A DNA stretch of 64,000 bases from Phycomyces nitens (lineage: Eukaryota; Mucoromycota; Mucoromycetes; Mucorales; Phycomycetaceae). Below are positions 12,715-54,389 of this stretch, piece after piece. A model generated the notes under the pieces. That model was not told where the DNA came from and made no database searches. It worked only from the letters and a program-made list of their open reading frames with translations. The DNA is taken from the NCBI GenBank assembly GCA_022702545.1, contig JAHRBC010000004.1:5362001-5426000 (forward strand). Direction: 5' to 3'. Numbering within the stretch: position 1 is the first letter of the stretch; each line of letters starts with the position of its first letter. The position numbers and the translations under genes were made by a program.

Positions 12715-13902
12715 TCACCAATAAAGCGATCCACTCTGGGAAGCAGAGGGAGTCAGGTAATACATGAGATTATAAAAGAGAATTACTCCAAGAATATAGG
12801 ATGTCCATATAACTAGATCAATATACACACACACATAAATACACACGTTATCATTCATTCATGGCCTTGACTTACCAATCTTTTCCCATTTCTTTCGATA
12901 GGAGACGCCTTGTAGGTCAGGGAATCCCATAATATTGCAGAATGCATGGCACAAGAAAGGTGACCAAACATTTCCAGTGCGTACAAAGACAAAACTCGAG
13001 TACCATCCAAATATAGTGGTATAAGTAAACTGGAAACCTATAAAGATATTGTCAATAAAGTGCTTTATATATATATCTCTACTGATTGCTTACTAGAATA
13101 CAAGGCTGCCTGCTGCAATGCCTTTTTGTTGGACCCAAATTTGCGATAATTCTCCCACATGTGGTGTAAATGGGCTATTGAAGCATAGAAAATAAGCGTC
13201 TTTGATATAAGGTTGCAATCTTTACCTATTCCAAACCAAATTGGCGAAATGAAAATCAAATAACCCCTTGAATGCCCAGCTTGATACAGCAATGCAATCT
13301 CACAAGCACGAAAGACAAATTCTTCTGTCAAAGGAGCCTAGAAAATATTGTTTCAATATCAGAGAAAAATTAGGTTACATTTACCCACGATAATATAATT
13401 CCGTTGCCCCTGTAATGAACGGAGATATTGGAGATCTGCTTGAAGGTTAAACTCGCATTGGAAAGGCAGCTCTTCTTCGAACCACAGCAAAGTCAGTGGT
13501 CCGAGAAATAGAATCATGGTCAGAAGAAGAGGAGAGAATATCTGAATGATTTTCCATGAATCTGTTGGGTCATAGAGACCTAATCGGATGAGCATTGATG
13601 AGATTTGATCCTTTGTGGACATCTACAAAAAGTACATTTAGATTGATCATCTTGATCTAGGTTGATCATATTACATTTACAAATGTCCCACTCAGGTAAA
13701 GCTCACTCCATACGATTATTGGAATGACAACAGAAGCCAGCAAGACTGACTTTATACGAGAGATAATTGTTTTCGGATGATCTCGAGACAGATTAGATGA
13801 TGCATCGCGAAAGAGGTAAAAGCCAGCAATGTAAATTATTGCAAATGATGCACAGGTGGAATTTGCCAACCATGTATTTACAATTCCATTTGCCAAATTC
13901 AT
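12715..13902 (-). CDS. RCE1: RCE1 CAAX prenyl endopeptidase, 6 exons
   Basis: Rce1 is the ER-membrane protease that removes the last three residues of farnesylated or geranylgeranylated CAAX proteins such as Ras. Exons on the minus strand: 13902-13681, 13622-13389, 13337-13226, 13174-13094, 13037-12876, 12812-12715, totalling 302 aa. Family signatures are clear: LSRDHPKTIISRIKSVL near the N-terminus, SPLLLTMILFLGPL, the catalytic RNYIIAPLTEEFVFRAC with paired glutamates, FGIAHLHHMWENYRKFG with catalytic histidine, and CHAFCNIMGFPDLQG. The last exon adds the final membrane helix (TSYILGVILFYNLMYYL). An in-frame TGA beyond the previous exon is avoided by a good donor. The donor after RNYII must be GTGGGT to keep the frame. 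The start at 13902 is the first usable ATG. Confidence 0.9.
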
Positions 13903-14109: not shown

Positions 14110-17100
14110 CTAAAAGCTATCCAGCTAAAATCAAATCAATAATTAGCTTGATGTGTGGATATTTGACAGTGTTTCATCTTACCAGATCATCAGTAGAGAA
14201 ATACGGTTTCTCGGCCTTGGTTTCTGTTGTATCTGTAGTACCATTCTCCATAAACTAAAAAATACCAAGCATTAGCTAGATATCATAATACATACAGCTT
14301 ACCTTTCTTGCTTCCAAGTCTGTTACATCAGAAGAGATGGTTTCCTCTGTGGTAATAAGAGTGATGTTCTTATTTTTGATCATGTCCCAAAATTCAATGT
14401 GTTTTGAGTCAGGATTTGAAGGGTTACAAATCAATTTCACTTTTTGTAGACACTTATTAAACGATTTTCCTTCAAAATCCTAAAAAAGAAGAAGATAAAG
14501 GTCATCGTTTAGGCTCCCTTTGAAGATAAGCATTGCATTTACCTGCAAGGCTACATTGCGCATACAGTCAAGACAATCGATTATTTTTTTGTAATTTTTA
14601 TCTCCAAAAGAAGTAGCAATCAAGTGAATAACTACATCGCTGATCTGTTCAAAGGCTAGGAAAGAACAATACATGCATTTTTTTAGTATTCAAAGTTTCT
14701 ATTCTCTTTGATACTTTTAGTTTCTAACCTTCTGATATCAGATCTCGGTCAGGGTTGCCAACCATGGCCCTAAAGTCTGCGATTGGATTTTCAACAGAGA
14801 TCGTAAACACATCTTTTGGCAGGACGGTTTGTTTTACTTCAAAACCATCTTGGTCTTCCATCTTCACTTTCTTAAATGGTGGGTAGTCTTGCTTAATGTC
14901 ACCTGTGTTCTCCATTTCTCCACCTGCTTTATCGTCTTCACAAACCCTTTTAATACTGAGCTCATGTTCTCTTTGAGCTCCATAGTATCTATCCTTATCT
15001 TCATTGGGATCCTCCACTTATCAAACAGGGTCAGCAAATCAAAGCATACGCCAGTTCATCAAACACTCACCCTTTTCGATTTGGAATATTTCTTGGATTT
15101 GTTTTGCCAGTTCTCTTGTGTTTTCCACAAACTCGGGCAAGACGTTAATTTGGTCTTTGATGCTCTGATGGAGGTCTGGAATAGGTGCATTTTCATCAAG
15201 AGCTCTGTTACGGACTGTTTCACCAACCCTCCAGATAAGTGGATTAAAGACTTTTTCAGGTACTAGATGTTCACACGGATTCCTTTATATGTAAGAGTCA
15301 GCAAGACATCTATTTATTAATATAGCTTACCCATCCTCATCTTTTCCAGCATCTAAAAGTGACATGCTCTCTACAAGTTTCTCCATGCTCTCCAGTTTGA
15401 CTGTATCAGATACGCTGTTGGAGTTTTGGTTGTTTTGGACTTTAAAAGCATTTTGTATTGTGTCGGGTATATTCTTTATGTCATTACAAAATGGTGCCTA
15501 GATTGTGATATAATGTACAAGTGTTAAATCATCATTTCTACCTTTATATATTAGACTTGCCTCTACAAAGTATAAAAAATCCATTCCGTCTTCAACACAA
15601 GGAAACAATACTCCAAGCTTTGGGGGAGTGTTTGATTTACTAGTATATCTGACCATTGCGACAGAATTTGTTTCATACATTGCCTTTGCCAAGGCCGTAA
15701 GTACAGTGTTGGTCTCGGTAGTATCCACTGTCCCTCCTGTAACCACATATATTTTGGATATTTTGTAGGTTTCAGGAAACTATTTATGAATTGGCAAACG
15801 AAATTAATTTTGATCAACCAAGTTGATAAACAGCCTTATTTTCAAAAACGTACCCGTTCAGAATCAATAAACTTGATAACATATAATCCAGGAGCTGTAG
15901 ACACATCAAACAAGTTTTGTTGATCTGGTAAGACAGGAACCAGCTTTTTTCCAAGTCTGTATGTCCTTATAACACTCCTTGTATCCACAGTCTGGTCTTT
16001 CTCTGCGCTCTGGATACTTTTCAGTGGATTTTCCCACTTCCATTCATCTTCTCTGTCCCCATCATCATTTCTCTCCATTTCATCTTCTTCTGCGTCAAGC
16101 TCATTTACAGATCTATGTTTCCTTTCTAGATCCTCCAAGGTTGTAGGTCGAAATTCACTTGTTGCTTTCACGTTGTGTATATTTTCTTTATCTTCTACAG
16201 AAACTGGGTATGAAGGCACATAACATTTCGTTGCACCTCTTCGTGTTACATATTCTGTTCGTAAAAACATAAACACGTTCAAATATAATCCATTCTCAAG
16301 ATCATTTGCCGGATCGCCCAGTATCATGCCACCACGGAAGCTTGGTGAGGGTCTTGTAACCTTTTTGTAGATTAAATTTGCTGTTTGATATGCTTCATCA
16401 AGGCTCAAGGTACAAGATGGTGACTCTAGTCCAGATATAAGAGTTTTCCACCTAGCCGTATTCTCATTCTAAACAACAGGCCAATGAGTTACAAGTGCAC
16501 ATTTCCGAGCAAATATTAAATAACAATACCTTTAATGGCTGGGATAAATTGAATCCAGGACTCCTGCATTATATATTGAATATCAATTTCCTCAAAGGAT
16601 TATTTCCAGAGAGACTTACACAACCACCAGACTGATTCTGTGCGTTTTCAATATTGCTGTAATTTCGTTGTTTTCCATCCAATTGACTGGGTTCCTGGTA
16701 TCTGTCATCAAGTACACTTGTTTTTCGTATTTGTGACCTCCACAATGACAGACGATCATATCTACTGCCAAGATAAGAGCATCCAGAGCTAACAATGGTA
16801 ATGCATTGTCAATATCTTTGTACTCTGTAAAATAGTAGTCTCGTTTTAAAGCAGCCTTACAATCAGCGGTCGTTTCGGTACTTTCGGATAGTTCTAGTTT
16901 AGATAATCTTTGTAGTGTCTTGAGCGTAGGTTGGTTTATTTCTTCAACTGTACAAATGTTCTGATATTGGTCTTGGAATTGGCTTGCCAGTGAATTTTTT
17001 GTCTCTATTGCAAAGGATCCATAAATTGCGATTTGCAATGAGCCCATTGAGATGTCTATTTTCTTCTCTTTTAATTATTTATTACCTGCCGTTCCTGTCG

Positions 17101-17325
17101 CTATAAGCCCTATCATGTCAGTTTTTCTTCCAGCCCAAATCTATTAATCCAAACACTCAATGACCTAAAGCTTAATGATTTGTAGAAACAAACCTTGTCT
17201 TCGATTTTTTTGGCAATAATCTGGCGTTCTTCTTCAAATATACTCTTGGAGTGTCCTGGTAGGACATTCTTCCATGAATTAGCAACATCAAGTATGAAAA
17301 CCGTTGCTTTTTTTTGGAATGTCAT
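14110..17325 (-). CDS. KU80: KU80 (XRCC5) with full C-terminal arm, 13 exons
   Basis: Ku80 pairs with Ku70 to bind broken DNA ends in non-homologous end joining. Exons on the minus strand: 17325-17194, 17140-17086, 17055-16620, 16563-16530, 16468-15854, 15779-15561, 15497-15331, 15282-15071, 15016-14729, 14655-14543, 14479-14303, 14254-14183, 14124-14110, giving 844 aa with all phases consistent. The N-terminal von Willebrand A-like domain has KKATVFILDVANSW, IWAGRKTDMIG and LLALDALILAVDMIV. The central core has GLYVIKFIDSERV, SVAMVRYTSKSNTPPKLGV and MDFLYFVEAPF. The C-terminal domain is present (FNKCLQKVKLI, EFWDMIKNKNITLITTEE, VTDLEARKFM), and the final 15-bp exon completes DDLLDSF, resembling the DNA-PKcs-contacting tip of animal Ku80. 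One intron is GC-AG (15498-15560) and one only 30 bp (17056-17085). Confidence 0.92.
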
Positions 17326-26180: not shown

Positions 26181-26416
26181 AACTATGTAAAATTTTCTCT
26201 TATATATATATACACACCTTTCTATCCACCCCAATAATAAACCCTCCCATATCATATTATTAAAAATAAAGGATAAAGAATAAAATAACAGTTTGGATTT
26301 TTTAGAATATTGAATTCATGTTTATAGTTGTTGTTTTTTTATTTGAATACAAAAAGAAGTGGTCCATTCAGCCCAATCATTTTAAAAAAGAGAAAGAATT
26401 CTAAAGGGGGTAAAGC
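25757..26416. other. Intergenic AT-rich DNA with (ATT)n tract
   Basis: 3' flanks of the convergent zinc-finger and SSB genes. An ATT microsatellite runs about 26145-26180, and TTTTATTTTATT-type sequence lies around 25880-25950. No gene seen. Confidence 0.6.
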
Positions 26417-27226
26417 TTAACGACGCTGGGAGTAGACGTGAGCGAAAGCACGGGTGGCAGCGCGCTTGAGCTTGGACTGGGCACCCTTGAACTCATCAGC
26501 GGAACCATCCTCAGCAGAGATCTCCATCATCTCCATGGCCTCGGCGAGAGCAGTCTCGATGGCCTCACGGTCACCACGACGGATCTTCATGTTGACGTTG
26601 GGGTCAGAGACCTGGTTCTCAACCTGGTAGACGTAAGACTCAAGATCCTGCTTGGCCTGGACAACAGCCTCACGGGCCTTGTCAGTCTCGGCGTTCTTCT
26701 CGGCATCGTTGACCATGCGCTCGATATCGGCAGCAGAGAGACGAGTGGAGTTGGAGATGGTGACATCAGCCTTGCGACCGGTGGTCTTGTCCTGAGCAGT
26801 GACCTTCAAGATACCGTTGGCATCGAGATCGAAAGTGCAGAGGAGCTCGGGGGTACCGCGGGGGGCGGGGATCAAGCCAGTGAGAGAGAACTCACCCAAA
26901 AGGTTGTTCTCCTTGGTCAAGAGACGCTCACCCTCGTAAACGGGGAAGGTGACGGTGGTCTGGTTGTCGGAAGCGGTGGTGAAGACCTTGGACTTCTGGC
27001 AAGGGATGGGGCTGTTACGGGGGACAACAACGGCCATGATACCACCCTGCATCTCAACACCGAGGGAAAGAGGGACGACATCCAACAACAACAAGTCCTG
27101 GGTCTTCTCGTTACCGGCCTGGTTGGTGAGGACGGCAGCCTGGACAGCGGCACCGTAGGCAACAGCCTCATCGGGGTTGATGGACTTGTTGAGCTCCTTA
27201 CCGTTGAAGAGGTCCTGGAGGAGGGA

Positions 27227-27262
<36 letters not shown>

Positions 27263-28457
27263 AACGATCTCGTCGACGTTCTTCTTGTCGATCTTGGCAT
27301 CCTTGAGGACACGCTCGACGGGCTCAACGGTACCGTTGAAGCTGGCAGAGTTGATCTCCTCGAACTTGGCACGGGTGATGTTGGACTGGAAGTCAACACC
27401 CTCGAAGAGAGAGTCAACCTCGACGGTGGTCTGGGTCAAGGAAGACAAGGTACGCTTTGCGCGCTCGGAAGCGGAACGGAGACGACGGAGGGCACGGGCA
27501 TCATCAGAGATGTCCTTCTTGTGCTTGCGCTTGATCTCCTGGACAAAGTGGTTGACGAGGGTGTTATCGAAATCCTCACCACCCAAATGGGTGTTACCAG
27601 CGGTGGCCTTGACGGCGAAGACACCACCAGAGATGGTCAAGAGGGAAACATCAAAGGTTCCACCTCCGAGATCGAAGATGAGAACGTTGCGCTCCTTCTT
27701 GTCGTTGGCATCGAGACCGTAGGCGATGGCAGCGGCAGTGGGCTCGTTGATGATACGGAGGACCTCGAGACCGGCAATGACACCAGCATCCTTGGTGGCC
27801 TGACGCTGACCTATTTAACAACGTATAAGAAAAAAAAAGATACTCTTTACTTGTCTAATAACTATACTTACTGTCGTTGAAGTAAGCGGGGACAGTGACG
27901 ACGGCCTTGGAGACCTTCTTGCCAAGCTTGGCCTCAGCAATCTCCTTCATCTTGATCAAGACCATGGAAGAGATTTCTAATATCATAGTCACATAAGTAA
28001 CAGCCGAAAAGTTTTTTGTTTGTTTTTTCTTACCCTGGGGGGAGTAAGTCTTGGTCTCGCCCTCGAACTGAACCTGGATGAAGGGGTTCTCGTTCTGGTC
28101 GACGACGGTGAAAGGCCAGTTCTTCATGTCAGCCTTGACATCGGCATCATCGAAACGACGACCGATAAGACGCTTGGCATCAAAGACAGTGTTCTTGGGG
28201 TTCATGGCAGCCTGGTTCTTGGCGGCATCACCAACAAGACGCTCGCTGTCGGAGAAGGCAACGTAGGAGGGAGTGGTACGGTTACCCTGCTCGTTAGCGA
28301 TAATCTCGACACGCTCGGACTCCCAGACACCAACGCAAGAGTAGCTAATAGAGTGAATTAGGACCTTTTTTGTCTTATTTTGAATACCAAAAAAAAGATC
28401 ATCAACTTACGTGGTACCCAAATCAATACCAATGGCACCCTCGTATTCGACAGACAT
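26417..28457 (-). CDS. SSB: Hsp70 chaperone of the ribosome-associated SSB type, 4 exons
   Basis: An Hsp70 of the fungal Ssb class, which binds nascent chains at the ribosome. Exons on the minus strand: 28457-28411, 28344-28034, 27976-27872, 27810-26417, giving 618 aa. Hsp70 signatures are intact: [28 protein letters not shown] and [14 protein letters not shown]. The Ssb subtype is supported by [56 protein letters not shown], the absence of an EEVD tail (it ends VYSQRR) and no ER or mitochondrial targeting sequence. Codon use is strongly biased (GC-rich third positions), as in highly expressed genes, which also creates long open antisense frames. Cytosolic Hsp70 of the Ssa type is the main alternative but would end EEVD. 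Confidence 0.93.
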
Positions 28458-42900: not shown

Positions 42901-44757
42901 TACATTTGACTTTTTTTTTCAATCTTAACCAATGTCCATATTAGATACAGCCAAAAACGCACACGTTATATATAAAGGAAAATTAACAAAATAAAAAAAG
43001 AAAATGATTGGTGTCAACACTATGAACTTTATGATATTATGTGCAAGAGGAAAATATTTCTAAATGTAGACTAAAATATAATGCTGTGTTCTATTTTGTT
43101 TTGGTAATTATTGAATGATTTTACCAGGTGCATTGAGAACCAGAATAATATATTTCCAAAATAGGCTAAAACATCATCTTATATTTGCCTTTTTCGAATG
43201 ATTTATTCAAGTAATATTACCAGGCTCTTGTATTATGATGTACGGGGGAAACATAGATGATCATATATTCATTTCATAAGTAAAATTAGAAGCAAGTACT
43301 AAGACGGCTCCGAAAATGCTTTTTTTGAGAGCAAAGTTCCTTTGATTTTTGTACAAAGATAAAAACCAATGTGTTGGAAACAATACACAACAATTATGGT
43401 GAAACAACGACAGAAGATTGGGTGATTACCTGATCTAATGTAACATGGGAGTATTTTGAAGTCTCTTTAAACTGATCCTTTTTATTATATTGATCTTGAT
43501 TCTTTCGTTCTCTTTATTAGCCACTAGCTGGTTTGATAGAATATTAACAGTTTCAATAAAGATATAAAATATGCTTAGAAGTTGTATATATTATAGTCTG
43601 AGAACAAAAGTGCGGTTGGTAAGACCAAGGCACATCTTCTATGTTTCACCAAAGTTACCATTGGTATTTAGTTTGACTAAAAATGAAGTTATTAACTTGA
43701 AAAGAAAACCATTAGGTTATCTTGTTTAAAACAAATGATTCATGCACTAATTTCACTACAAGAGATTAGAATTGTGTTATATCAAAAATACCTTTTTCAG
43801 CTTTATAAAAATAAAAATATTGATTGGTATCATACGATTGGTTTTTTTTCCAAGGTACAATATTCAAGATTCACCTTTTTAAAGAATATTTCTAATACAC
43901 AAGATTTAAATCACCAATTATTTATTTTATGTTTCAAAACATTATAAACTCATTCTGCTCACAGTCTACAAATAAATGCTATCATAATTTTATGTTACCA
44001 ATGGCTATCATGTACATTCGTACAACCTTTTATTCCTATTTTAAGTGTCTTACCATTGGTCCATATACTTTGGAAGCACCATATAAATCTTTTGACAATA
44101 TGAACTCTAATAATGACAATCAGAACATAAAGCTGTTTTAAATTAGTTGAGCACACTTTGTTAATAAATTGAGAATATTGAATATACCTATCTATAAATA
44201 TCAGCTTAATACACTTGTAATTTCCACCAAAGTAACAGTCGATTAGAGAAAGATTATTTCTTGTATCGTAAAATTATGGTTATAATATCTTGAACAATAC
44301 GTGGCAAAGGCTGTGAAATAATAATAGTAAAAAATGGCTATATTAGTCGCTATTTTCCCAAATAAGAACTGATACTTTAAACATTAATATTCAGTTCTAT
44401 CAAACAAGAACAAAATGTATAGTTTTGGAATTTATTTACCCTTATATATATGTTTAAGCCAGTTATTTTTTACTTAATTTATTTCTGTGTATCAAAGAAC
44501 ATGTTTTTATTTATTGTGCTTTACTCTGAATACACCTATCATTATTGTTTGGTTAAACAGAGAGGCATGTTTATCCAAGGGTAACTATTCAAAATATAAA
44601 CTGCAGTCTAATTTTACAAAAAATTGATTAATATAAAATCTCCCTAATTTCATCGACTTTATTCCCTATCTTGAACTTTTCCATACTTATTTAAATACAT
44701 ACTTGTTGTATTTATAACCTAGTTTTCCGAACCATTCTTTTGTAAACCTACTACAAG
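39991..44757. other. 4.8-kb gene-poor AT-rich region with the first OPT-flanking repeat
   Basis: Short frames only (longest 118 codons, Lys/Ile-rich). The repeat at 43371-43684 is listed separately. The last 60 bp before the OPT start (TATTTATAACCTAGTTTTCC) resemble those before the second OPT gene and are probably core promoter. Confidence 0.5.
43371..43684 (+). repeat. Upstream repeat of OPT duplication, copy 1
   Basis: About 314 bp highly similar to 50090-50400, in the same orientation. Shared blocks include TAACATGGGAGTATTTTGAA, GATAGAATATTAACA and GACCAAGGCACATCTTCTAT. It lies 1.1 kb before the first OPT gene. It appears noncoding and marks the left part of the duplicated segment. Confidence 0.85.
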
Positions 44758-47140
44758 ATGGATACGACCTTGGAAAAACGAGAGGAGATCTTTCAAACTC
44801 CCAGTTTCGAAGAGAAAGACAAATATTATGATGAAAAAGAAGAAAGTCTTTCTGTTAATGAGGCCAACAAAGGCACCAGAGACATCACCGATATTGACTT
44901 TGAAGACGAAGATATGGATATCAGAATTGTAAACCAAATTGCCAGTGTCGAAGATGATCCAACAATAAAAGTTTTAACCCTTCGTGCCGTAGTATGTGGT
45001 TGTGTAAGTATACAAATCTACTTTCTCCGAGGAATCAATCTTAATAGTTTTAACCTTTTATTTCAGTTGCTTGCATGTCTCGGCTCTTCTGTTTACCAGC
45101 TAATGTTGTTCAAGGCTGCTGCTGTTCCTCTTTCCGACATTTTTATGATGATGGTCGGCTACCTTGCTTGTGTTGGTTCATCTCGCGTGTTAAAGGAAGG
45201 CACTATATTCAACCCTGGTCCATTCAACGCCAAGGAACATACCTTTATGTATGTCATCATTTCTTCCGCAAACGCATCTGCCTACGGTACATACATTCTC
45301 GGCGCCCAGCAACTCTACTACAATGCCTACCCATCTGCAGCTGGTGGTATCTTTTTGCTGTTTGCTACTCAATTGATTGGTTACGGTATTGCCGGTCAAC
45401 TGCGTCCTTTCCTCGTCTACCCCTCTATTATGATCTGGCCTAACAGTCTCCCTACCATTTCCTTCATCAAGACATTCAATGCTCCTGGCAGTGATAATAA
45501 GGCCCTGATCAAGTTCTTCTTCGCCATCTTCTTCAGTATCTTTGTTTACGAAATTTTCCCCCAGTACATTTTCCCTGTTCTCAGTGCAATTTCAATTGTC
45601 TGTCTTGCCAGACGTGATAGCCCTTGGGTCCAACATATCTTTGGTGGTATGTCAGTCAACGAAGGCCTCGGTATTGGTTCCATTAGTTTGGATTGGTCTT
45701 ATCTGTCATCGCTCTCTCCTCTTGTACTTCCTCTTTATGTCCAGTTCAACCTTTACGCTGGAATACTTGTTTTGTGGCTCGTGATTCCTCTTGCTTACTA
45801 CTACAATCTGTGGGATGCACAAAGCTTTCCCTTCATGGCAAATGGTTTATTCAAATTGAACAAAGAGACTGGTACCTCCTCCAAGTACCCCCAAGCACTT
45901 ATCCTCGACGAGTATAACAACATCAACCAAACTGCTCTTGAAGAAGTTGGCCGGCCTTACTTTAGTACCGCAATGGCCATTAATTACATTTGTATCAATA
46001 TTGGTGTCACTGCCACAATCACTCATACTATCTTATACTATGGTGCTAATATCAAGAAAACTGCCATTGCTATCTTCAGAAAAAAAGAGAGCAGAGAGAA
46101 TGATATTCACAACCGCCTTATGGCTGCGTACAAAGAAGTTCCCACCTGGTGGTACTACATTATCTTTGTCTGCGGTATTGGACTCAACATCGGAATCGGT
46201 TATGCCAACCACAGTCAGCTTCCATGGTGGGGTTTCTTGCTCGCAATTCTCTTGGCTACTATTCTGTCTCTTCCAATGAACATGATTCTAGCCATTACGG
46301 GTATTAATTTTGGTCTCAATGTCGTTGCTGAGATGATCTGTGGTTTCATACTTCCTGGTAACCCAATTGCTAATATGTACTTCAAGACCCTTGGATTCAA
46401 CACCGTAAACCAAGCCGGTCATATGGCAAATGATCTCAAGATTGGTCACTACATGAAGGTTCCACCAAGACTCATTTTAATGGGCCAAATATTGGGTACT
46501 GTTATCGGTTGTATCTTCAACTATATCGTCAACTACGTAAGTAATCTTTTATTGAATCTGTTAAATATTTATTGGCTTCTAACAAAATAGTTTCCAATAG
46601 ACCATTATCAACTCCAAGAGAGAAGAGCTTCTGGACCCTGCAGGCAATATTTGGAGTGGCACACGTTTCCAAACCATGAACTCTGCTGGTCTCACTTGGG
46701 GTGGTCTTGGTCCTATGTTGATGTTTGGGCCTTCTACTCAATACAACTTTATCTTGTGGGGCTTTATCGTTGGTTTCGCTGTCCCACTTCCTTTCTGGCT
46801 TCTTCACAAATTCTTCCCTAAAGTCGGTTTTAACTATATCAACACTCCCACAATACTTTTTGGTCTTGTCATGTTCCCTGGTAACAATTCTTCATGGATC
46901 ACTGTCTCTTTCATCGTCGTTCTTATTAGTCAGCTGTACGTCAAACGTCGCTACAACAAGTGGTATGTCAAGCACAACTATCTGATGTCTGCTGCGCTGG
47001 ACTCAGGAACTTCTTTGATGTCATTCATATTGGCCATGACCGTCTTTGGTGGCGGTGATGGTGTTGAACGACCTTTCCCTACCTGGGGTGGTAATCCTAA
47101 TCTTGGTTACCTGGATTACTGTTGCGCTGACTGCGAATAA
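44758..47140 (+). CDS. Oligopeptide transporter, OPT family, copy 1, 3 exons
   Basis: A proton-coupled transporter of the OPT family (peptides or related metal-chelating ligands) in the plasma membrane. Exons are 44758-45003, 45067-46536 and 46601-47140, giving 751 aa. An acidic cytoplasmic N-terminus of about 75 residues precedes roughly 14-16 membrane segments. Family motifs are intact: NPGPFNAKEHTFMYVIISS, ANASAYGTYILGAQQLYY, LVYPSIMIWP, NVVAEMICGFILPGNPIANM and KIGHYMKVPPR. The C-terminus ends in a cysteine pair (YLDYCCADC). Its paralogue 7.2 kb downstream shares both intron positions and exact exon 2 and exon 3 lengths. Substrate cannot be deduced. Certain of the family. Confidence 0.95.
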
Positions 47141-52001: not shown

Positions 52002-54389
52002 ATGGAGAACACCTTGGAAAAACGAGAGGAAACCGTTCGAGCCTCTAGTATCGACGAGAAAGAAAAATACCTTGACGAAAAAGAGGGACTTGCTTCCGTC
52101 AACGAGTCTGACAGAGACACCAGAGACACCAGAGATGCTAAAGATATTGACTATGAAAACGAAGATGTTGATATCGAGATCGTAAACCAAATCGCAAGTA
52201 TCGTAGATGATCCAGAAATAAAAGTTTTGACTATCCGTTCAGTGGTAGCTGGTTCAGTAAGTATATTACACTTTTAAAGATATTCTGATTATTAATTTTA
52301 GCCACATTTTATTTTAGTTACTCGCATGTCTCGGTGCTTCTGTCTACCAACTGATGTTCTTTAAGCCCGTTCCTGTTCCTCTATCAAACGTGTTCATGTT
52401 GATTATCGGCTACCTCATGTGTATTGGCTCAACTCGCTTGTTTAAGGAAGGCACTCTACTCAACCCTTGCCCCTTCAACATCAAGGAGCATACCTTGATG
52501 TTTATCATCATTTCTACCGCAAACGCATCTGCCTACGGTACATACATTCTCGGTGCCCAGCAACTCTACTACAAGGACTACCCATCTGCAGCTGGCGGTA
52601 TCTTTTTGCTGTTTGCTACTCAATTGATTGGTTATGGTATTGCCGGTCAACTGCGTCCTTTCCTTGTCTACCCCTCTATTATGATCTGGCCCCGTTCTAT
52701 TCCTACAATCTCTTTCCTCAGGACATTCAATACCCCAGGTGATGAGAGCAGAGTTCTCATGAAGTTCTTCTTTTCAATCTTCTTTGGTATCTTTGTCTGG
52801 GAAATCTTCCCCCAGTACATGTTCCCCATTCTCGGTGGAATTTCAATCGTCTGTCTCGCCAAACGTGACAGTGTTTGGGTCCAAAATCTCTTTGGTGGTC
52901 TTGGAGTCAACGAAGGTCTTGGTATTGGTTCAATCAGTTTGGACTGGACCAATTTGTCAATGCTGTCTCCCCTTGTACTTCCTCTTTATGTTCAGTCCAA
53001 CATCTACGCCGGTATATTCATTACATGGCTCATGGCTCCTCTTATTTACTACTATAATCTGTGGGACGCAAAGAGCTTCCCATTCTTGTCAAATGGTCTG
53101 TTCAGAATGGATCCTGAAACTGGTGAGGCCGTGGACTACCCTCAAGATCTTATCCTCGACGAGCACAACAATATCAACCAGACTGCTCTTGAAGAGATTG
53201 GCCGCCCTTACTTCAACCCACTATATGCTATTGGTTACATTATCAGCAATCTTGCTGTCACTGCCATGATCACCCATGTAGCTCTCTTTTATGGATCTGA
53301 TATCAAGAGAATTGCTATGGCTATTCTTAGACGCAAGGAAAGCAGAGAAAATGATGTCCACAACCGTCTCATGGCTGCGTACAAGGAGGTCCCCGCCTGG
53401 TGGTACTACACTATCTTTGTCTGCGGTATTGGACTCAACATCGGAATCGGTTATGCCAACCACAGTCAGCTTCCATGGTGGGGTTTCTTGCTCGCAATTC
53501 TCTTGGCTACTGTTCTGTCTCTTCCATTGAACATGATTACAGCCATTACTGGTAATGGTTTCGGTCTCAATGTCGTTGCTGAGATGATTTGTGGTTTCAT
53601 ACTTCCTGGTAACCCAATTGCTAATATGTACTTCAAGACCCTTGGATTCAACACTCTAAGCCAGGCTGGAATTATGGCAAATGATCTCAAGATTGGTCAT
53701 TACATGAAGATCCCTCCTAAAATCACTTTCTTGGGCCAAATGATTGGAACTGTTATTGGTTGCATCTTTAACTATATTGTAAACTATGTAAGTATTTTTA
53801 TTGAATCTGTTGAATCCTTACTTGCTTCTAACCAAAAAAAATACTATAGTCCATTATCAACTCCAAGAGAGAACAGCTCTTGGATCCCAATGGCAATATC
53901 TGGAGTGGTGCCGAGATTCAGACCATGAATGCTGCTGGTATTACCTGGGGTGGTATCGGTCCAATGTTCATGTTTGGCCCTGATACCCAGTACTCCTTCT
54001 TCCTGTGGTCCTTCATTGCCGGATTTGGTCTCCCTATTCCTTTCTGGATTCTTCACAGATTCTATCCTAAAGCTGGTTTTGACCTGGTCAATACTCCTAT
54101 GATTCTTTATGGCCTCAACCTTTTCCCTGGTTACAGCTATTCATGGATCACTGTATCTTTCATCATTATCCTTGTCAGTCAGCTGTACATCAAAAAGCGC
54201 TACAACAAGTGGTATATCAAGCACAACTATCTCATGTCTGCTGCTTTGGATTCTGGAGCATCTCTCATGTCATTCATATTGGCCATGTCTGTTTTCGGTG
54301 GCGGTGATGGTGTTGAACGACCTTTCCCTACCTGGGCTGGTAATCCTGATCTTGTTTATCTGGATTACTGCTGTGCTGATTGTCAATAA
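52002..54389 (+). CDS. Oligopeptide transporter, OPT family, copy 2, 3 exons
   Basis: A tandem paralogue of the 44758 gene, 754 aa, with exons 52002-52256, 52318-53787 and 53850-54389. The ATG at 52002 aligns with the start of copy 1. The membrane core and motifs are conserved (ANASAYGTYILGAQQLYY, NVVAEMICGFILPGNPIANM, KIGHYMKIPPK). In the hallmark NPGPF motif the glycine is a cysteine (NPCPFNIKEH near 52461-52490), which is unusual and might alter transport. The N-terminal acidic tail differs in length and sequence from copy 1, while some core blocks are nearly identical at DNA level. It is probably in the plasma membrane. The gene is open throughout, so it is likely functional. Confidence 0.94.

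Follow-up and report, generated by a model that had tools for sequence, protein, structure and literature searches.

Animal Ku80 (XRCC5) is built of a Ku_N domain, a Ku core and a Ku_PK_bind domain, followed by a linker and an acidic tip made up of DDLLD and two further residues. In human DNA-dependent protein kinase (DNA-PK), a helix made by Ku80 residues 725-731 lies on the NUC194 region of the kinase DNA-PKcs, according to PMC8549938, which calls its own residue assignment uncertain and slightly different from that of other structures. The section of that paper on the Ku80 C-terminus treats the tip as a better marker of DNA-PKcs than the folded arm, with Drosophila, which has no DNA-PKcs yet retains a partial tip motif, as a partial exception. 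Section 6 of the same paper places DNA-PKcs in Mucoromycota and Chytridiomycota, and the legend to its Fig. 6 includes chytrid/gut-fungus Ku80 (Spizellomyces, Neocallimastix) in the alignment of Ku80 C-termini; these two represent other fungal groups, and no Ku80 from Mucoromycota appears in it. The published linkage is that DNA-PKcs is absent from Dikarya and that the Ku80 tip co-occurs with the kinase. Here we describe Ku80 of Phycomyces nitens, encoded on the minus strand of a 64,000 nucleotide stretch (the window, C6:5362001-5426000), which has the same order of parts as animal Ku80, together with an apparently intact DNA-PKcs gene in the same genome. DNA-PKcs in this fungal lineage is already published, and its pairing with Ku80 is ordinary for the lineage and not new in kind; what is added is that one zygomycete genome confirms both halves of the published co-occurrence, docking tip and kinase.

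The Ku80 gene of Phycomyces nitens

Feature coordinates are window positions, and genome-wide searches covered the 49-Mb, 11-contig genome. Judged by its sequence, the window gene is Ku80 (XRCC5), with Pfam matches to Ku_N (vWA, PF03731, E 3.4e-10), to the Ku beta-barrel core (PF02735, E 4.3e-22) and then to Ku_PK_bind. The features of the gene are the following.

14110..17325, minus strand: Ku80 gene, 14 coding exons, 803 amino acids
17325-17194, 17140-17086, 17004-16861, 16788-16620, 16563-16530, minus strand: exons 1-5 of the exon model
16468-15854, 15779-15561, 15497-15331, 15282-15071, 15016-14729, minus strand: exons 6-10 of the exon model
14655-14543, 14479-14303, 14254-14183, 14124-14110, minus strand: exons 11-14, with GT..AG introns between them, read directly
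15498..15560, minus strand: intron with non-canonical GC-AG ends, within the Ku core; FVEAPF spans the junction in both Phycomyces proteins
14249..14789, minus strand: Ku_PK_bind (PF08785), exonic parts only, residues 659-777 of the 803 amino acid model
14183..14197, minus strand: codons S-T-D-D-L, first part of the docking tip, from the sequence and the exon model
14125..14182, minus strand: terminal intron, 58 nt, GTAAGATG...TTTTAG, spliced out as judged by the C-termini of three database proteins
14110..14124, minus strand: terminal exon, 15 bp, CTGGATAGCTTTTAG, L-D-S-F-stop, completing DDLLDSF

A deposited P. nitens protein (P0001) shows 97% identity over 94% of the length of an 827 amino acid version of the model, and starts 52 residues later than the window model; the single difference noticed in the arm is FWDMIKN in the window against FWDIIKN in P0001. 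The two versions of the model differ in a 72-nt in-frame intron (16860-16789), detectable solely by comparison with P0001 and P0002, which was left unspliced in the 827 amino acid version. The Pfam, phmmer and P0001 identity figures were computed on that version, and the arm is identical in both. Overall the protein is divergent from human Ku80 (phmmer, 123.5 bits), and the human tip, EEGGDVDDLLDMI as it appears in PMC8549938, ends in MI where that of Phycomyces ends in SF.

A sequence-only reading of this DNA had assigned the last four exons to a folded C-terminal domain. The domain is real, but it starts one exon earlier, near 14789, and therefore outside the interval 14110..14655 given for it. 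On the spliced protein PF08785 scored 100.1 bits (cut-off 25, E 1.2e-28) over profile positions 1-119 of 120, and among the candidates scored across the genome it matched two Ku80 exons and nothing else. In sequence comparisons the arm matches the solved human Ku80 C-terminal domains 6zh6, 1q2z and 1rw2 (E 8.2e-9 to 5.8e-8; 2.7e-8 for 1q2z), and in the alignment with animal Ku80 that the same reading had proposed, the match to 6zh6 continues through the linker to DDLLD. AlphaFold2, run with four sequences, placed helices at P0001 residues 608-726, with block means of the predicted local distance difference test (pLDDT) of 61-87 over residues 601-710 and below 40 beyond; the last Ku80 residues were modelled as a short helix at low confidence. 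A Foldseek search with the whole-Ku80 model found Ku80 chains (best E 9.1e-20), with query template modelling scores of 0.17-0.18 among the 50 matches listed, and these model-based matches appear to contribute little over the sequence evidence.

After Ku_PK_bind and the linker the protein ends in the tip STDDLLDSF. That a 15-bp terminal exon completes DDLLDSF was borne out, as the frame reads LDSF-stop and the deposited P. nitens protein has the same end. The tip is DDLLDLF in P. blakesleeanus and takes a looser form, DQLLEDF, in Spinellus fusiger, whose Ku80 is the next closest among those retrieved; these deposited proteins are database entries and probably gene predictions themselves. Ku80 homology searches yielded four proteins, from P. 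nitens, P. blakesleeanus, Spinellus fusiger and Fusarium, and a search aimed at the core yielded only the two Phycomyces proteins.

Taken alone, the folded arm is not diagnostic of DNA-PKcs, because fungi that lack the kinase retain it. A part of PMC11936186 reports Ku-PK-bind in nearly all fungal Ku80, including that of S. pombe, and in Fusarium Ku80 (P0004), the sole Dikarya Ku80 retrieved, PF08785 is present and the DDLL tip absent. The earlier proposal that retention of the arm signals a DNA-PKcs partner thus holds for the tip and the partner, and fails for the folded arm taken alone. The comparison supports the acidic tip as a better marker of DNA-PKcs in fungi than the folded arm. P0004 (Fusarium austroafricanum, 1198 amino acids) also extends about 450 residues beyond the Ku arm in an unrelated-looking stretch, and is possibly a fused gene prediction.

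DNA-PKcs in the same genome

A DNA-PKcs-like partner had been predicted from the Ku80 tail, with a genome search as the way to find it, and an apparently intact DNA-PKcs was located on another contig.

C5:6218650-6234974, plus strand: DNA-PKcs gene, homology-guided model of 3966 residues, with P. blakesleeanus P0005 as guide

In the genome-wide profile search the DNAPKcs_CC3 and PI3_PI4_kinase families co-located at C5:6225846-6234321 on the plus strand. DNAPKcs_CC3 (NUC194) gave three matches, two of which, at 43 and 38.9 bits, exceeded the cut-off, and some 7 kb further downstream, also on the plus strand, lie the kinase-domain matches; the PI3_PI4_kinase search also matched other kinase loci in the genome. 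With P0005 as query, tblastn covered 4009 of 4023 residues, in order except for one weak stray piece (E 0.14), and stops within many of the joined pieces were attributed to bridged introns, since the spliced model runs past them. The model contains YRIGELPD at 2655, GIGDRHMENFLLD, DFGYAFG and a FATC end. Its kinase-FATC region scored 423 bits against human DNA-PKcs, compared with 159 against ATR, 156 against mTOR and 135 against ATM, and at E values up to 0.001 the NUC194 region matched only DNA-PKcs chains in the PDB (best 4.1e-40). On account of this coverage, the motifs, the kinase-FATC scores and the NUC194 matches, the gene looks intact and orthologous. Identity to P0005 is 3217 of 3958 aligned residues, a figure that is not independent since the model was built on P0005; the unguided model gave 71%. 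The guided model has one zero-length exon artefact and seven gaps of 4-13 residues relative to P0005, and it is uncertain over a stretch around residue 1700; P0005 is without five residues, GIGDR, that are found in the P. nitens model.

At least 18 fungal DNA-PKcs (P0005-P0022) were found among the 120 listed of 188 database matches, the genera listed being Phycomyces, Apophysomyces, Halteromyces, Cunninghamella, Absidia, Chlamydoabsidia, Zychaea, Gongronella, Choanephora, Umbelopsis, Parasitella, Mucor, Mortierella, Linnemannia and Cetraspora. Seven Pfam domains are present in P0005, and P0019 has the same set minus FAT. The YRxGxxPD motif, which a passage of PMC8549938 describes as invariant in DNA-PKcs, occurs in 19/19 fungal sequences. 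Judged by titles and abstracts, the matches listed in the literature searched included no functional study of DNA-PKcs in Mucoromycota. Phycomyces is a candidate non-animal organism for work on DNA-PK.

Proposed docking of the tip and alternative explanations

The window gene very probably encodes the Ku80 subunit of an animal-type DNA-PK holoenzyme. By analogy with human work, which also supplies the Ku70 partner and the activation of the kinase, Ku70/Ku80 would encircle the broken DNA end, the Ku80 arm would serve as a tether that docks through its acidic tip, DDLLDSF, on the kinase's NUC194 region, and docking would bring DNA-PKcs to the DNA end for non-homologous end joining. The Phycomyces tip should in this way tether its own DNA-PKcs as in human DNA-PK. 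Two segments, human 1955-1970 and 1912-1923, are the Ku80 docking proposal of one human structure. Phycomyces retains FYVGFLFQEK at the equivalent of 1955-1970, and the conservation of this segment across 19 fungi and 6 vertebrates is 0.316, against a NUC194 mean of 0.236. The FYxGFLF segment has diverged in P0013 and P0015-P0019 (Choanephora, Parasitella and Mucor DNA-PKcs).

Several results weigh against a holoenzyme of this kind. Conservation of 1955-1970 is not exceptional, since 78 of 373 16-residue NUC194 windows equal or exceed it, and that of 1912-1923 is 0.164. The whole-Ku80 AlphaFold2 model has a mean pLDDT of 49 and is poor outside the arm. In exon-by-exon genome searches the Ku core family, with one control detected, matched the window Ku80 only and gave no Ku70; TIGR00578 (Ku70) and Ku_N had no match, with no positive control detected, and neither did XRCC4, XLF, PAXX and ligase IV, again with no control detected. 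Such searches are insensitive, the one with Ku_N having missed even the window Ku80, so that the absence of Ku70, XRCC4, XLF, PAXX or ligase IV is not inferable from these searches.

The terminal exon might be an annotation artefact, with transcripts reading through to end in STDDLVR. In its favour, an ab initio splice scorer gave read-through to DDLVR-stop a score of 92.9, which is 1.3 units more than the 91.6 of a spliced end that uses another acceptor; neither of the two ab initio models listed has the LDSF end. Splice-signal scoring alone does not prove the predicted LDSF end, which is carried by protein comparison; the tips of the three database proteins argue against an artefact, though they are probably predictions themselves, and we regard it as very improbable. 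The tip might instead dock ATM/Tel1. The C-termini of NBS1 and ATRIP carry similar acidic-hydrophobic kinase-docking motifs, and other PI3K-family kinase domains exist in this genome. However, the tip has been lost in Dikarya although Tel1 is, to our knowledge, general in fungi. The published co-occurrence of the tip, in the relevant passages of PMC8549938, is moreover with DNA-PKcs, and docking on ATM/Tel1 deserves hardly any credence. A further explanation is that the arm persists because of a different partner, as in those Dikarya whose Ku80 carries the folded domain although they lack DNA-PKcs, and that the kinase acts independently of Ku. The distribution of the folded domain (nearly all fungal Ku80 including S. 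pombe, as stated in part of PMC11936186, and Fusarium P0004) and the lack of special conservation in the proposed docking segment are in its favour; with both tip and kinase in P. nitens, it seems quite improbable next to a Ku80 that docks its own DNA-PKcs.

Autophosphorylation sites of fungal DNA-PKcs

In the whole alignment only five columns hold serine or threonine followed by glutamine (S/TQ) in 9 or more of the 17 fungal DNA-PKcs from outside Phycomyces, and four of these five fall in loops that correspond to the human PQR and ABCDE clusters. The PQR-loop column is S/TQ in 16 of the 17 other fungi and, at the same column, in none of the 6 vertebrates. In the remaining loop columns S/TQ is found at the T2609 equivalent in 15/17 other fungi and 6/6 vertebrates, at the T2638 equivalent in 16/17 and 5/6, and two residues before the T2647 position in 10/17 and 4/6. 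Of these four loop columns the two Phycomyces species retain only the T2638 equivalent, and they differ from most of the 17 other fungi in lacking the rest; P. nitens has KETQ at the T2638 equivalent and KVQ at that of T2609. In a regular-expression tally the T2647 position itself was TQ in 8/19 fungi, and not in Phycomyces, and ABCDE sites A and D were counted in 13/19 and 17/19. The tally set its first anchor wrongly in P0009, P0010 and P0014 and hence undercounts; column counts give 15/19 for A and 18/19 for D.

Phycomyces keeps 2 of the 5 conserved S/TQ columns, compared with 3 to 5 of 5 in each of the other 17 fungi when these were left out one at a time. Background retention at moderately conserved columns of any kind is 811/1336 in P. 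nitens and 799/1336 in P. blakesleeanus. A shuffle test of the ABCDE loop, applied to species that are related and hence not independent, gave S/TQ enrichment (P <0.05) in 14/17 other fungi and none in either Phycomyces (P 0.329 and 0.059). With too few sites and one lineage, the loss in Phycomyces is not separable from ordinary divergence and is a lead only.

In PMC10419180 the green plants analysed are reported to have an invariant T2638 and a mostly conserved T2609, and the fungal S/TQ pattern therefore agrees with an ancient switch. We tentatively raise the possibility, which we hold to be less probable than its converse, that Mucoromycota DNA-PK is a complete machine of the animal type (docking tail, kinase and autophosphorylation-gated release) from the ancestor of fungi and animals, and that Phycomyces has partly dismantled the release switch with the docking tail kept. 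Of the loop sites, T2638 would have been kept, and the losses would be those of the T2609 equivalent, of the fungal S/TQ in the PQR loop and of the one immediately preceding the T2647 position. If this were true, Phycomyces would be a natural experiment on which DNA-PKcs phosphosite matters.

Other genes

The sole DRMBL match in the genome was considered as Artemis and not called; it lies near a frame with a zinc-finger-like CPVC...HVNNC segment, which we take to be SNM1/PSO2-like, and Artemis is neither shown nor excluded. Just downstream of Ku80 and in the same direction are frames similar to the Rce1 CAAX protease (window 12859-13337, minus strand), with a match above the cut-off in one frame (E 7.5e-8) and below it in the next (E 0.0017). 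Two OPT oligopeptide transporter frames lie on the plus strand at 44746-46587 (E 1.2e-121) and 52318-53925 (E 3.2e-128), each followed by a second long frame, the two resembling each other (46601-47137 and 53850-54386), so that they are probably a tandem duplicate pair. An Hsp70 gene is located at 26420-28406 on the minus strand (E 9.9e-165 for 26420-27814), and opposite it runs a long open frame of 488 amino acids (26414-27877), presumably a mirror of the coding frame.
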